Assembly (NCBI RefSeq): GCF_016862775.1
Contig: NZ_BONP01000012.1
Coordinates: 1-64,000 of the forward strand
Source of the DNA: Cellulomonas phragmiteti
Lineage (GTDB): Bacteria > Actinomycetota > Actinomycetes > Actinomycetales > Cellulomonadaceae
DNA: 64,000 nucleotides
Direction of reading: 5' to 3'
The position numbers and the translations under genes are program-made. Shown piece after piece: positions 3,259 to 27,593 of the stretch (positions within the stretch are counted from its first letter, which is position 1; every line of letters begins with the position of its first letter). The notes below the pieces were generated by a model that saw only the letters and a program-made list of their open reading frames with translations, searched no databases and was not told where the DNA came from.

Positions 3259-4097
3259 CGACGCTCACCTCGGGGTCCCGCGCGGCGGCACGCACGCCAC
3301 GCGGGGCGCCCGCCCGGCCGGGCGTCCGGTTCGCCCGCGTGCTCGTCGCGGAGTGGACCAAGCTCACGAGCGTGCCGTCGAACCCCTGGCTGGCGCTCGG
3401 CACGGTCGTCGCGGCCGCGGGCACCGCGTACGGGCTCGGTCTGTTCGTCCGGCCCGACGACGGGCGGTCCGGGTCCTGGGTGGTGGTGTCCGGGTTCGTG
3501 CTCGCGCAGCTCGGGTTCCTCGTCCTCGGGGCGGTCGTCGGGACGTCGGAGCACACGACGGGCACCGCGCGCACGACCTTCACCGCGGTACCGCGCCGGC
3601 TGCCCGTGCTCGGGGCGCAGGCGGTCGTCACGGCCGTCGCGGCGGGCGTGACCGCGGCGGTCGCACTGGGCGCGTCGTACCTGGCGACGACCGGCCCGCG
3701 GGCCGGCGACGCACCCGCGCTCGACCTGGCGGTGCCCGGCACGACCCGCGCCCTGGTCGGCTTCGTGGTGGTCGCCGTCGCGGTCTCCCTGCTGGGGCTC
3801 GGCCTCGGTGCGCTGCTGCGACGCCCGGCGGACGCGCTCGTGACCGGCGTCCTGCTCGTCTTCCTCCTCGACCTCACCCTCAGCGGGAACCCGGGACCCG
3901 TCACCGACACGGTCCGCGCGCTCCTGCCGTCGGCGGGGACCCGGCTCCTGGAGGACGACGCGGCGGTCGCGGTGCTGGACGCCGCGACCCGCGGGCCGGA
4001 GCTCGGCGCGTGGGGCGGGGCAGCGGTGCTCGGCGCGTGGGTCGTGGTGGTGCTCGGTGCCGCGGCGTACCGGCTGGTGCGGCATGACGTCCGCTGA
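3255..4097 (+). CDS. ABC-2 type exporter permease, second subunit
   Basis: 280-residue membrane protein with about six TM segments, starting at the ATG that overlaps the previous stop. It repeats the architecture of the upstream permease: AEWTKLTSVPSNPW near the N terminus, VLAQLGFLVLGAVVG, then ARTTFTAVPRR. This suggests a local duplication. The operon ends at a strong hairpin immediately after the stop. The neighbouring kinase/regulator pair may control it, but the terminator separates the transcripts. Confidence 0.9.
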   Translation: MTTLTSGSRAAARTPRGAPARPGVRFARVLVAEWTKLTSVPSNPWLALGTVVAAAGTAYGLGLFVRPDDGRSGSWVVVSGFVLAQLGFLVLGAVVGTSEHTTGTARTTFTAVPRRLPVLGAQAVVTAVAAGVTAAVALGASYLATTGPRAGDAPALDLAVPGTTRALVGFVVVAVAVSLLGLGLGALLRRPADALVTGVLLVFLLDLTLSGNPGPVTDTVRALLPSAGTRLLEDDAAVAVLDAATRGPELGAWGGAAVLGAWVVVVLGAAAYRLVRHDVR

Positions 4098-4098
4098 G

Positions 4099-4139
4099 CC
4101 CGGCCCGCGGGTGGTGGTGCCGACCACCCGCGGGCCGGG
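4099..4139 (+). terminator. Terminator of ABC exporter operon (17-bp perfect stem)
   Basis: Arms 4099-4115 and 4123-4139 are perfect reverse complements (17 bp) around a 7-nt loop. It starts 2 nt after the permease stop codon. There is no U-tract. Confidence 0.8.
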
Positions 4140-23685: not shown

Positions 23686-23883
23686 TCAGCCCGCGTCCGC
23701 GAACTCCGGCAGCGTCGAGACCACCGTGCTCGTCTGCGTCGTGTCCGTCAGCAGCGCGCCCGTGAGCTCGACCGTCGACGACAGCAGCATCATCACGACG
23801 ACCAGCAGCAGCACCGCGAGCCGCACCCACGTCCCGCGGGCCTCCGCCCGCGGGCGCCGCGGGTCACTCGGAGACGAGGGCAT
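23686..23883 (-). CDS. 65-residue TasA-type mini-substrate (candidate)
   Basis: Small protein with excellent AGGAGG RBS (5-nt spacing), starting 20 nt inside the signal peptidase gene, so coupled to it. A basic N terminus and TM stretch (about residues 19-42) are followed by TGALLTDTTQTSTVV. This matches the region after the membrane segment of the TasA-like neighbour (TSALFTDQDTLSDSL), where SipW-type peptidases cut after Ala. Cleavage after A43 would release a 22-residue peptide. Not a known family; the similarity is short, and a simple single-pass membrane protein is the alternative. Confidence 0.62.
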   Translation of the reverse strand: MPSSPSDPRRPRAEARGTWVRLAVLLLVVVMMLLSSTVELTGALLTDTTQTSTVVSTLPEFADAG

Positions 23884-24577
23884 CGATCCTCCTGTCGTCC
23901 CGCGACCGACGCGCGAGCCTGCCGCGCCGCCGGCCCTCCAGCACCGAGACGACCTCGAGCGTCGCCAGGGCCAGCAGCGGCGGCACGAGCATCACGGCGC
24001 GACCCTGGGCCGACGTGGCCCACGACAGGACCGCACCCCAGCCGTGGTGCACCTCGAGCACGACGCCGCGCACGCGCTCCACGGGCGTGGCGTTCGGGTC
24101 GGGCTCCGGGTTGGCGTCGCCCTGCGTCCGGATGTACGGCTGCATGACCGGGTCGCCGTCCTCCTGCAGCACCGGCTCCATGCGGCCCGAGCCGTCGCCC
24201 ACGTCCTGCATGGCCGGCAGGCTGTGCAGGGAGACGATGCGGTGCGTCACCAGGTTCGGCTCCCCGACGGGCTGGAACGTCACGACCAGGTCGGGCTTGA
24301 GCTCCGACGGGTCGGTCACGGCCCGCAGCACCACGACGTCACCGGCCACGAACTGCGGCGCCATCGACCCCGACGTCACGATGAGCAGCCGCTGCCCCTG
24401 CGCCTGGAACCACAGCGGCGCGGCCAGGGACACCACGAACGCCAGTACCCCGACGACCACGACCGTCCACAGCAGCGCGCTCGCCGCCGACCGCCACCAG
24501 GGTGTGCGCGGGCGGACCGCCGGGCGGGGAGCGCGGCGGTCGACGACGGGCCGCGGGGCCTGCTGCGCCGAGGTCAA
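23864..24577 (-). CDS. Signal peptidase I, SipW/ER type
   Basis: 237 residues. N-terminal TM (~31-52), catalytic Ser at about S71 in TSGSMAPQF, His at about H112 in LVTHRIVSLH (the ER/archaeal type uses Ser-His instead of Ser-Lys), the acidic motif in TQGDANPEPD, and a C-terminal TM (~193-213). This class (S26B) processes TasA/camelysin-type fibre proteins in Bacillus. The frame starts at TTG 24577, 7 nt after the TasA-like stop, with weak RBS, consistent with translational coupling. Confidence 0.9.
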   Translation of the reverse strand: MTSAQQAPRPVVDRRAPRPAVRPRTPWWRSAASALLWTVVVVGVLAFVVSLAAPLWFQAQGQRLLIVTSGSMAPQFVAGDVVVLRAVTDPSELKPDLVVTFQPVGEPNLVTHRIVSLHSLPAMQDVGDGSGRMEPVLQEDGDPVMQPYIRTQGDANPEPDPNATPVERVRGVVLEVHHGWGAVLSWATSAQGRAVMLVPPLLALATLEVVSVLEGRRRGRLARRSRDDRRIDALVSE

Positions 24578-24584
24578 GGTCGTC

Positions 24585-25259
24585 TCAGTTGTTCACCGTC
24601 TGCTCGGAGTCGAGCCGGAAGGTCAGCTCGGCAGCCGTGTTCTGGAAGGTGTCGTCCGCGTCGCGCGACATGTCGACGCGCAGGCAGAGCACCTCGGACC
24701 GCACGACGGCGTCCAACCCGCGATCGCCGGGCTGCGCGCCCGTCGCCGGGTCGCCCACGATCGGCGTCAGGTCGCCCGGGAGGCCGAAGTCGCCCGGCAG
24801 GAGGGTGCGCGTGTCCCCCAGGGCGGTCCCGGCGTCCGTGCTGGCCTGCGTGCACGTGGCGTCCGCGTACACCCGCACGCGCAGCTGCGTGCGCAGGTCA
24901 CCCGTGCCCGGCGTGCCGGTCGCCGGCGTCGCGGTCGCGGCGGACGTGCTCACCGCGTACCGGAGCGCCAGCGAGCCCTCGTTGCGCACCGTCAGCGGCG
25001 CGAGCGCCACGTCGCCGGGGGCCAGGCCCTCGGCCGGCAGCGTGAACTGCGCGCCCTCGGCCGTCAGCACCACGGTCCCCGTGGTGAGGCTGTCGGACAG
25101 CGTGTCCTGGTCCGTGAACAGCGCCGACGTCGTCAGCGACGTCACGCCCACGGCCGCGAGGACGAGGATGGACCCGGTGGCCCAGACGCGCCGCCGCCGC
25201 GCCACGTCCTGCCGCGAGGGCGCCGGATCGATCATCTCCTCGAGCAGCTCGTCCATCAT
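24585..25259 (-). CDS. TasA/CalY-like exported fibre protein with SipW-type signal
   Basis: 224 residues from ATG 25259. The N terminus is basic (RRRRVW), then a hydrophobic segment ending TTSALFTDQDTLSDSLTTGTVVL, the recognisable 'SipW-dependent' pattern (A|[F/L]FTD...). Cleavage is expected after about A46. The mature ~178 residues are Thr/Ala-rich with predicted beta strands (APLTVRNEGSLALRYAVS) and two Cys, as in camelysin/TasA domains. First gene of a three-gene unit with its peptidase and the mini-substrate. Fibre formation is inferred from the family. Confidence 0.85.
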   Translation of the reverse strand: MMDELLEEMIDPAPSRQDVARRRRVWATGSILVLAAVGVTSLTTSALFTDQDTLSDSLTTGTVVLTAEGAQFTLPAEGLAPGDVALAPLTVRNEGSLALRYAVSTSAATATPATGTPGTGDLRTQLRVRVYADATCTQASTDAGTALGDTRTLLPGDFGLPGDLTPIVGDPATGAQPGDRGLDAVVRSEVLCLRVDMSRDADDTFQNTAAELTFRLDSEQTVNN

Positions 25260-25389: not shown

Positions 25390-27417
25390 TCACGCGATCG
25401 GGTGAAGCGAGTGCCCGCCGGGCGGGTGGAGTGCGTCGGCCGGTGCCGGGCGGGCCCACAGGAACCCCTGCGCGCGGTCGACGCCCAGGCGCTCGAGCGT
25501 CCGTGCCGTCTGCTCGTCCTCGACGCCCTCGGCCACCACCCGCAGGCCGAAGGAGTGGGCGAGGTCGACCATCGCCTGCACGACGACCTCCGAGCCCGCC
25601 CGACCGCCCTCGCCGAGGTCGGCGACGAACACGCGGTCGATCTTCAGCTCGGCGACCGGCAGGTCCCGCAGCTGCGAGATCGACGTGGTGCCCGTCCCGA
25701 AGTCGTCGATCGCCACCCGCACGCCCAGGGCGCTCAGCCGCTCGAGCACCGGGACCACGCGCGAGCGGTCCGCGACGAGCGCCGTCTCGGTGATCTCGAC
25801 CTCGAGCAGCCCCGGCTCGACCCCGTGCTCCGCGAGCAGCAGCTCGATCATGTCGACGACGGCCGGGCTGGCGACGTCGTGCGCCGACAGGTTCACCGCG
25901 ACGGGCACGGCCTCGCCCTGCGCGCGCCACCGCGCGAGCTGGCGCACCGACTCCTCGAGGGCGAACCCCGTGACCCGGTGGATGAGGCCCGACTGCTCGG
26001 CCAGCGGCACGAACGCGCCCGGCGGCAGCAGGCCGCGCGTGGGGTGGCGCCACCGGATCAGCGCCTCCAGGCCCACCGTCCGCTGCGACGCGAGCTCGAT
26101 CTTCGGCTGGTAGTGCATCTCCAGCTGGGGGGCGGCGCCGGCCTCGGAGCGCGACTCGAGCGCCTGGTGCAGCTCGCCCAGCAGGACCAGCCGCGCGGGC
26201 GAGGAGTCGTCCGCGCTGGGGGAGTAGACGCTCACCCCCGCCCGGTGGTGCTTGGCCGCGTACATCGCGATGTCGGCCGTGCGCATGAGCGCGGACGCGT
26301 CGGCCGCGTGGTCCGGCAGGCACGCGACGCCGATGGACGTCTCGACGTGCAGGGCGATGTCGCTCAGCTCGAACGGGCGGCCGAACAGCCCGCGCACGCG
26401 GCGCGCCAGCCGCTCGGCGTTGGCGACCGTGCGCACGTCCGGCAGGAGGATCGCGAACTCGTCGCCACCGAGGCGGGCGACCACGTCGTCGTCGCGCAGG
26501 GCGTTGCGCAACCGCTCCGCGACCTGCTGCAGCAGCTCGTCGCCGTGGTCGTGGCCCAGCGTGTCGTTGATGTCCTTGAAGCGGTCGATGTCGAGCAGGA
26601 TGAGGCCGACCCGGGCCCCGGCGTCGTCGTGCGAGACCTTGTCGATCGCGCGCTGCATCTGGTCGGCGAGCAGCCGGCGGTTCGGCAGCCCGGTGAGGGA
26701 GTCGAGCAGCGCGAGCCGGGCGTTCTCGAGCGCGGTCGAGCGCAGCCGGCGCGACGTCGAGTGCACGATCTGGAAGAGCAGCAGCCACAGCAGGACCAGG
26801 CTCCCGACGACCACGAGCGTGACCGTGCGGGTCGTCGTCTGCAGCGTCTGCTGGGTGGCGGTGTGGTCGAGCATCACCTCGGCCGCCCCGACCGACGCCT
26901 CGCCGGCGACGCCGGCCTGCGCCTCGGGGGTGGCGGTGTCGGCCAGGCGCACCGGCACGTACACGTCGAGCACCGTGCGCTCGTCGGTGGCGGCGTCGCC
27001 CGCGCGCACGTCGGGCTGGACGACGGCGTCGGGCTGCCCGGACTGCATCGCCCGGGCGAGGCGGTCCGCGTGGGGCAGTCCCGTGGTCGCCTCGTCCGAG
27101 GAGTACATCAGCCGGCCGTCGGTGCTCCACAGGCGCAGCTCGACGAGCTCGTCGCCGAACCCGCGGGTGGCCGCCGTGACCGCGACCTGCTCCTCGGTGG
27201 ACAGGACGCCCGTGACGAAGGACGGCGACGGCACGACGCCCGCGGCGAACAGCGCCATCCGCGACGCCGCGCCCGTCCCGTCGCGCACCGCCTGGTCGCG
27301 CATCTGCGACGACGTCACCAGGACCAGGGCGACCCCGACCAGGACCATGCCGACGAGGCTCACGACCGCGAACCGGCGCGTGGGGCTCGAACGACGGCGA
27401 GCAGCTGGCACGTGCAC
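25390..27417 (-). CDS. Membrane GGDEF-EAL c-di-GMP enzyme
   Basis: 675 residues from GTG 27417 (CCGGAG upstream); the longer frame to 27516 adds low-confidence sequence before the first TM. Two TM helices (~17-37 and ~195-217) enclose a ~155-residue periplasmic/extracellular sensor region. GGDEF domain: LTGLPNRRLLAD, LDIDRFKDINDTLGHD, ARLGGDEFAIL, all intact. EAL domain: LEALIRWRHP, VNLSAHD, EITETAL, DDFGTGTTS, KIDRVFV, VAEGVED, also intact. Both synthase and phosphodiesterase activity are possible. Same strand as the TasA/SipW unit, 130 nt upstream of it, suggesting c-di-GMP control of matrix formation. Confidence 0.93.
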   Translation of the reverse strand: MHVPAARRRSSPTRRFAVVSLVGMVLVGVALVLVTSSQMRDQAVRDGTGAASRMALFAAGVVPSPSFVTGVLSTEEQVAVTAATRGFGDELVELRLWSTDGRLMYSSDEATTGLPHADRLARAMQSGQPDAVVQPDVRAGDAATDERTVLDVYVPVRLADTATPEAQAGVAGEASVGAAEVMLDHTATQQTLQTTTRTVTLVVVGSLVLLWLLLFQIVHSTSRRLRSTALENARLALLDSLTGLPNRRLLADQMQRAIDKVSHDDAGARVGLILLDIDRFKDINDTLGHDHGDELLQQVAERLRNALRDDDVVARLGGDEFAILLPDVRTVANAERLARRVRGLFGRPFELSDIALHVETSIGVACLPDHAADASALMRTADIAMYAAKHHRAGVSVYSPSADDSSPARLVLLGELHQALESRSEAGAAPQLEMHYQPKIELASQRTVGLEALIRWRHPTRGLLPPGAFVPLAEQSGLIHRVTGFALEESVRQLARWRAQGEAVPVAVNLSAHDVASPAVVDMIELLLAEHGVEPGLLEVEITETALVADRSRVVPVLERLSALGVRVAIDDFGTGTTSISQLRDLPVAELKIDRVFVADLGEGGRAGSEVVVQAMVDLAHSFGLRVVAEGVEDEQTARTLERLGVDRAQGFLWARPAPADALHPPGGHSLHPIA

Positions 27418-27593
27418 CTCGTGACTCCGGCGGACCCTGGTGACGGGAACCTCCCGTTCAGCGTATGTCGTGACGTGCGCCACGCCCAGGCGCCCCGCTG
27501 GACGACCGTCCGCCACGTGCGGGAACGTCGGGTGAATGTCGGGTGTTGTGCCCGACGGTGCCGCCGCGCGGGCGGCGCCGGAAGGAGCCCACC

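Follow-up and report, generated by a model that had tools for sequence, protein, structure and literature searches.

In Bacillus subtilis, the gene for TapA (YqxM) is the first in the tapA-sipW-tasA operon and encodes a protein of 253 amino acids with an Ig-type domain, a SipW substrate with an N-terminus resembling the donor strand of TasA, AFHDI in TapA corresponding to AFNDI in TasA (PMC10151520). TapA speeds the formation of TasA filaments, and a B. subtilis strain that secretes only residues 44-57 of TapA forms a proper biofilm (PMC10151520). The donor strand of TasA itself comprises residues 28-38, with contacts through F29, I32 and F39, and a TasA subunit cannot extend its own strand unless it is complemented (PMC9674648). 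In Bacillus cereus, CapP is a chaperone-like accessory of TasA/CalY filaments (PMC13082335), and is likened to the protein considered here by its description. Here, we describe a 65-codon gene that is the third gene of a tasA-like cluster in Cellulomonas phragmiteti, located in the first 64,000 nucleotides (nt) of contig NZ_BONP01000012.1 (assembly GCF_016862775.1; this whole stretch is referred to as the window).

The third gene is read here as encoding a natural minimal analogue of TapA, a one-strand peptide that would prime TasA-like fibres; we infer cleavage, release, binding and nucleation from the sequence and by analogy with TapA. Specifically, with a probability of about 0.58, the adjacent SipW-type peptidase would cleave the 65-amino acid protein after Ala43, and the 22-residue peptide set free in this way would serve as a stand-alone donor strand and initiate the TasA-like fibre. 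By sequence comparison, the gene is a shortened ortholog of a full-size protein found in related genera, which goes beyond what an initial annotation of this DNA had proposed.

Conservation of the third gene in Cellulomonas and related genera

A strong match to the peptidase was present in 34 of the 58 genomes used as relatives, all 34 belonging to the genus (E of 8.4e-63 or better; 38 genomes if weak matches are included). The TasA-like protein was present in 34 of these 58 relatives, and the small gene occupied the same position at all 34 tasA-sipW loci that were fetched first. A genome search with the 65-amino acid protein at E <= 10 gave matches in 55 of the 58 genomes, mostly by chance, and these were sorted by synteny. 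A family-wide search of 200 genomes from 25 genera yielded strong peptidase matches in 70 genomes from 5 genera; the listing for this search includes 60 genomes of the genus, 7 of which were without a strong sipW match, and no convincing small gene was found in these 7 genomes (best E 0.003).

Analysis of a larger set of 75 sipW loci, which includes five genomes known from the first set and was scanned for open reading frames (ORFs) of at least 50 codons, identified the third gene in 74 loci, with the start at -19 in 71, at -16 in 2 and at -22 in 1; the exception (L153/G217) is cut by a contig end. A further named set consisted of 79 loci, of which 68 (L161-L228) were kept as near relatives and 11 Enterococcus/Ruminococcus loci (L229-L239) were excluded from the tree and the counts. 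Among the 68 loci, 50 encode a short and 16 a full-size third protein; one breaks off at a contig end, and in another no third gene was seen. The latter, from Cellulomonas massiliensis (L228), shows no third gene with an ATG or GTG start at positions 3690-4100 and has a long branch in the SipW tree. The 75-locus set and the named set share genomes, and their counts were therefore not summed. A profile search of a protein database returned 46 matches, including the window's own protein, and the named ones were from Cellulomonas or Micrococcales (7994 candidates were scored, which places no bound on the family). The initial annotation had pointed to conservation and synteny across Cellulomonas genomes as a way to check its proposal, and the ORF, its position and an A/xFTD-type site (the slash marks the predicted cut) were indeed found to be kept across the genus and a sister genus, more than expected by chance.

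The predicted cleavage site and the donor-strand-like segment

The third ORF overlaps the sipW ORF by 20 nt, its ATG lying inside the end of sipW, and is preceded by a perfect AGGAGG (Table 1), in agreement with the initial annotation. AGGAGG was found within 20 nt upstream in 18 of 64 short orthologs, and GAGG, GGAG or AGGA in 52 of the 64. The hydrophobic stretch of the protein, which was assigned by eye from the translation, is followed by TGA/LLTDTTQTS, parallel to TSA/LFTDQDTLS in the TasA-like neighbour, as had been noted before; the predicted cut after Ala43 would leave 22 residues. Profile scans of the 65-amino acid protein gave no Pfam or NCBIfam family match, including no match to TIGR04088 (SipW-cognate signal peptide, cut-off 19 bits), a profile matched by 3 of 34 relatives with a best E of 0.3.

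Ala43 (P1, counting outward from the predicted cut) is one of only three invariant columns in a MAFFT alignment of 34 short proteins that was made without an anchor. Across 64 short forms, P1 is Ala in 62 and Ser in 2, P3 is Thr in 50 and Ala in 14, and P2' is Phe in 42, Leu in 13, Tyr in 6 and Met in 3, counts that are partly circular because the anchors were set in part by residues P3 to P4'. P1 is also Ala in all 16 full-size forms counted. The commonest form of the site is T-S-A/x-F-T-D. Hence, the site singled out in the initial annotation is conserved as a pattern, while the ALLTD spelling is local only.

The invariance of P1 bears on the possibility that the protein is cut slowly or not at all and remains membrane-bound, and that its outward strand tethers the first TasA-like subunit, thus representing an anchor rather than a free primer. 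The membrane stretch shows a low ratio of nonsynonymous to synonymous change (pN/pS; 0.37), and an anchoring of TasA to the cell wall has been proposed for TapA as well (PMC9674648). A tether, however, would not need an Ala at P1, which is found in 34 of 34 short forms (in the alignment without an anchor) as well as in 16 of 16 full-size forms, and we consider this explanation unlikely.

Downstream of the site, P12', a position that was not used for the anchor, is hydrophobic in 63 of the 64 short forms. In a control in which P1'-P16' were shuffled, the mean was 19.5 and 63 was reached in 0 of 20000 shuffles, although these shuffles ignore relatedness. Hydrophobic residues were also found at P8' (45), P10' (35) and P14' (26), and only rarely at P7' (1), P9' (4), P11' (11) and P13' (8). 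This alternation suggests a strand that buries one of its faces. P12' is hydrophobic in 9 of 9 full-size forms (L159/G058, genus g23, was excluded from the full-size site counts in this set as its site placement is unreliable) and is Ile or Leu in 28 of 34 TasA-like neighbours, and the equivalent residue of the B. subtilis TasA donor strand, Phe39, is also hydrophobic. In addition, hhalign aligned the profile of the short proteins with that of the TasA-like proteins at an E of 4.2e-7. Pooled over 15 chosen pairs, pN/pS was 0.26 for P3-P15', 0.37 for P27-P4, 0.52 for the N-terminus and 0.55 for the tail. Many species have a P-[DE]-F-like element after the strand at P16'-P18' (LPEF in the window), with a hydrophobic P18' in 31 of 63 proteins; this element may perhaps make a second contact.

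In principle, a donor consisting of one strand may either start a fibre or block it, and the peptide could therefore be a cap or chaperone that fills the groove of monomers or of the fibre end and restrains growth. Stretches of TasA filament are shorter with more TapA (PMC10151520), which would fit a cap; but as TapA, the nearest studied case, accelerates filament formation (PMC10151520), a restraining role appears rather improbable. That the peptide is a secreted signal unrelated to the fibre, one of the roles proposed in the initial annotation, is highly improbable judging from the neighbourhood and sequence of the gene: while the protein is small and predicted to be secreted and has a variable C-terminus, its gene lies beside tasA-sipW in 74 of 75 loci, it resembles the N-terminus of the TasA-like protein and the gene that follows it in the window is found close by at just 19 of 75 loci. 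A pheromone-like signal in particular is disfavoured because the tail is very variable and the link to the fibre genes is fixed. Among the roles that had been proposed, the fibre nucleator fits best, given that the conserved part is a single strand sharing the register of TasA's donor strand, and that TapA residues 44-57 are sufficient in B. subtilis (PMC10151520).

Short and full-size forms of the third protein

The lengths of the third proteins fall into two groups, 61-163 and 254-400 residues, with few cut by contig ends. The short form was found in the genus of Cellulomonas (g1; 57/57) and in the sister genus g38 (7/7), and the full-size form in genera g30 (6/6), g27 (3/3) and g23 (1/1). 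Named members with a full-size form include Actinotalea, Pengzhenrongella, strains filed as C. fimi SB and C. aerilata, and several actinobacterial metagenome-assembled genomes (MAGs). Both forms share the position, the overlap with sipW, the signal region, the cleavage-site pattern and one strand, and hhalign aligned the two profiles with an E of 7.7e-9 over 54 columns covering signal and strand. Unlike the short proteins, the full-size proteins mostly have a Laminin_G_3 (laminin-G/ConA-like) domain, which was above cut-off in 6 of 9 and 7 of 8 proteins in two lists (one non-matching protein is in both), and two Cys that are invariant in 16 of 16. The first Cys of the full-size form is at P17' (6 proteins) or P18' (3 proteins; n=9), the shortest complete short forms end at P19' (three cut ORFs, including G013, which was kept in the alignment and the site counts, were excluded from this length count), and 63 of the 64 short forms lack any Cys beyond the site. 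In a model of the full-size protein, the mature N-terminus ahead of the folded domain had a predicted local distance difference test score (pLDDT) below 50.

In a SipW tree of the window and the 68 named loci (69 rows), the short form makes up one side of a branch with a support of 97/90, recovered in a quick tree with a Shimodaira-Hasegawa-like approximate likelihood ratio test value of 91, and all seven outgroup rows are full-size. The count of a single change on this tree groups the cut locus L212 and L228, which has no third gene, with the short forms; if L212 and L228 are each given a separate state, 3 changes are required, the minimum for four groups. As the short form is confined to one clade with full-size outgroups, the laminin-G-like domain was probably lost once, a direction that depends on the choice of outgroup. 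The SipW groups of L203 and L211 (filed as C. aerilata and C. fimi SB), L213 (Cellulosimicrobium cellulans DE0111) and L224 (an Acidobacteria MAG) differ from their names, perhaps reflecting misnaming of strains or bins. A search for a LamG protein encoded elsewhere as a replacement gave, in 25 of 35 genomes, mostly large proteins, such as one with a 1718-codon open frame in G000; weak matches in G007, G014 and G022 were to the short third genes. Among the literature matches listed, no paper was found with both camelysin and laminin G.

Probable derivation by domain loss and the absence of the gene in C. massiliensis would also fit a decaying remnant of a full-size gene that is kept only by translational coupling, but this is very doubtful given that the ratio of nonsynonymous to synonymous substitution rates was below 1 in 113 of 118 (non-independent) pairs, that pN/pS is lowest on the site and strand and that no broken copy was found among 74 third genes (in a scan of ORFs of at least 50 codons).

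A one-strand peptide as a putative starter of TasA-like fibres

Overall, priming by a free peptide appears to account best for these observations. In the proposed mechanism, each TasA-like subunit would, like TasA, donate its N-terminal strand to the subunit that follows, which would leave the first subunit of a chain without a donor. The released peptide would fill the groove of this first subunit, whose own strand would then be freed, and the chain could grow. The low-confidence mature N-termini in the models of the TasA-like and full-size proteins, which may be disordered, only allow such an exchange. In lineages with the full-size form, a lectin-like domain attached to this strand would sit where the fibre begins; Cellulomonas would have dispensed with the domain and retained the strand.

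Several observations limit the reading of a priming peptide cut by the neighbouring enzyme. An aromatic residue at P2' impedes the ordinary signal peptidase of E. coli, and SipW cuts TasA with Phe at this position (PMC10269814); while P2' is Phe or Tyr in 48 of the 64 short forms, it is Leu in the window's own protein. The genome of the window carries a second, distant SipW-type gene (C3:114505-114906), and the adjacent peptidase therefore need not be the sole SipW-type enzyme. In addition, C. massiliensis keeps tasA-like and sipW with no third gene seen, and the tail is long in the short forms of some species.

The likeness to TapA concerns a predicted SipW substrate in a TasA cluster with a TasA-donor-strand-like N-terminus; unlike tapA, the Cellulomonas gene follows sipW, and its product ends after the strand and a tail. 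No match to TIGR04087 (TapA, cut-off 80 bits) was found in the window's genome at E <= 0.001, while the B. subtilis control was found. The donor-strand-like segment after a SipW-type site speaks for a protein that may work like TapA, and not for membership in the TapA family. With TasA/camelysin (PF12389) the short protein shares the type of signal region, the A/xFTD-like site and the strand, but it has no globular subunit after the strand. Donor-strand peptides of chaperone-usher pili, such as the FimF peptide in FimG (PDB 3bfq), are laboratory reagents taken from subunits, whereas the Cellulomonas peptide would have a gene of its own. There may be an even chance that a free one-strand peptide with its own gene, the stripped heir of a lectin-tipped initiator, sets off the fibres of Cellulomonas and that evolution has thereby arrived at what had been a laboratory truncation; if so, a single beta-strand would be a complete fibre-assembly factor.

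The abstract of Earl 2020 reportedly names as an open question why TapA is made full length if its first 57 residues suffice. The apparent ability of one genus and its sister genus to manage without the rest of a TapA-like protein bears on this question, and the natural series of full-size, short and absent third genes offers a way to separate what the strand does from what the domain does. Moreover, biofilm research would gain a practical tool from a defined peptide of about 20 residues able to start or block TasA-type fibres. In the papers listed for Cellulomonas with SipW or TasA, each of which names the genus once, no expression, cleavage or fibre data were found.

Other features of the locus

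Table 1. Features of the third gene and its neighbours in the window
Feature	Position	Strand	Basis
Third gene of the cluster, 65-amino acid protein (SipW-type signal region and one strand)	23686..23883	minus	ATG start; ORF call
AGGAGG, Shine-Dalgarno-like, within sipW, 4 nt before ATG	23888..23893	minus	window sequence
Hydrophobic (signal/transmembrane) stretch, approximately residues 20-37	23773..23826	minus	read off translation
Ala43, predicted P1 of cleavage site	23755..23757	minus	conservation across orthologs
Predicted released peptide, 22 residues, P1'-P22'	23689..23754	minus	translation
Donor-strand-like segment, P1'-P15'	23710..23754	minus	P12' hydrophobicity, lowest pN/pS
SipW-type (TIGR02228) signal peptidase gene, start codon uncertain	23864..24577	minus	TIGR02228 68 bits, cut-off 51.85
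TasA-like fibre subunit gene, start at MMDELL likely	24585..25259	minus	PF12389 29.2 bits, cut-off 22.5
P1 Ala of TasA-like protein	25122-25124	minus
GGDEF-EAL (c-di-GMP turnover) gene, directly upstream of TasA-like gene	25390..27516	minus	profile scans

The peptidase is of the SipW type, with Ser and His motifs (SGSM and THR) that are invariant among 24 sequences; a Ser-His dyad is the mark of the endoplasmic reticulum-type signal peptidase (PMC10269814). The TasA-like neighbour is assigned to TasA/camelysin by PF12389. With TIGR04088 it scored 17 bits (below the cut-off of 19) in the scan of the window and 19.6 in a genome search. Foldseek with the model of this protein gave the TasA fibre 8aur_A as the top PDB match (E 3.9e-7), and the mature N-terminus of the model had a pLDDT below 50. 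The GGDEF-EAL gene is upstream and on the same strand in all 75 fetched loci, and the oxidoreductase gene downstream of the third gene in the window was contained in the fetched sequence at only 19 of these loci. The conserved unit thus seems to consist of the GGDEF-EAL, tasA-like, sipW and third genes, which would link the fibres to cyclic diguanosine monophosphate (c-di-GMP). Around the second SipW-type gene (at approximately 5539-6165 of L240, G000:C3:109000-121000), several weak to good TIGR04088 matches were found.
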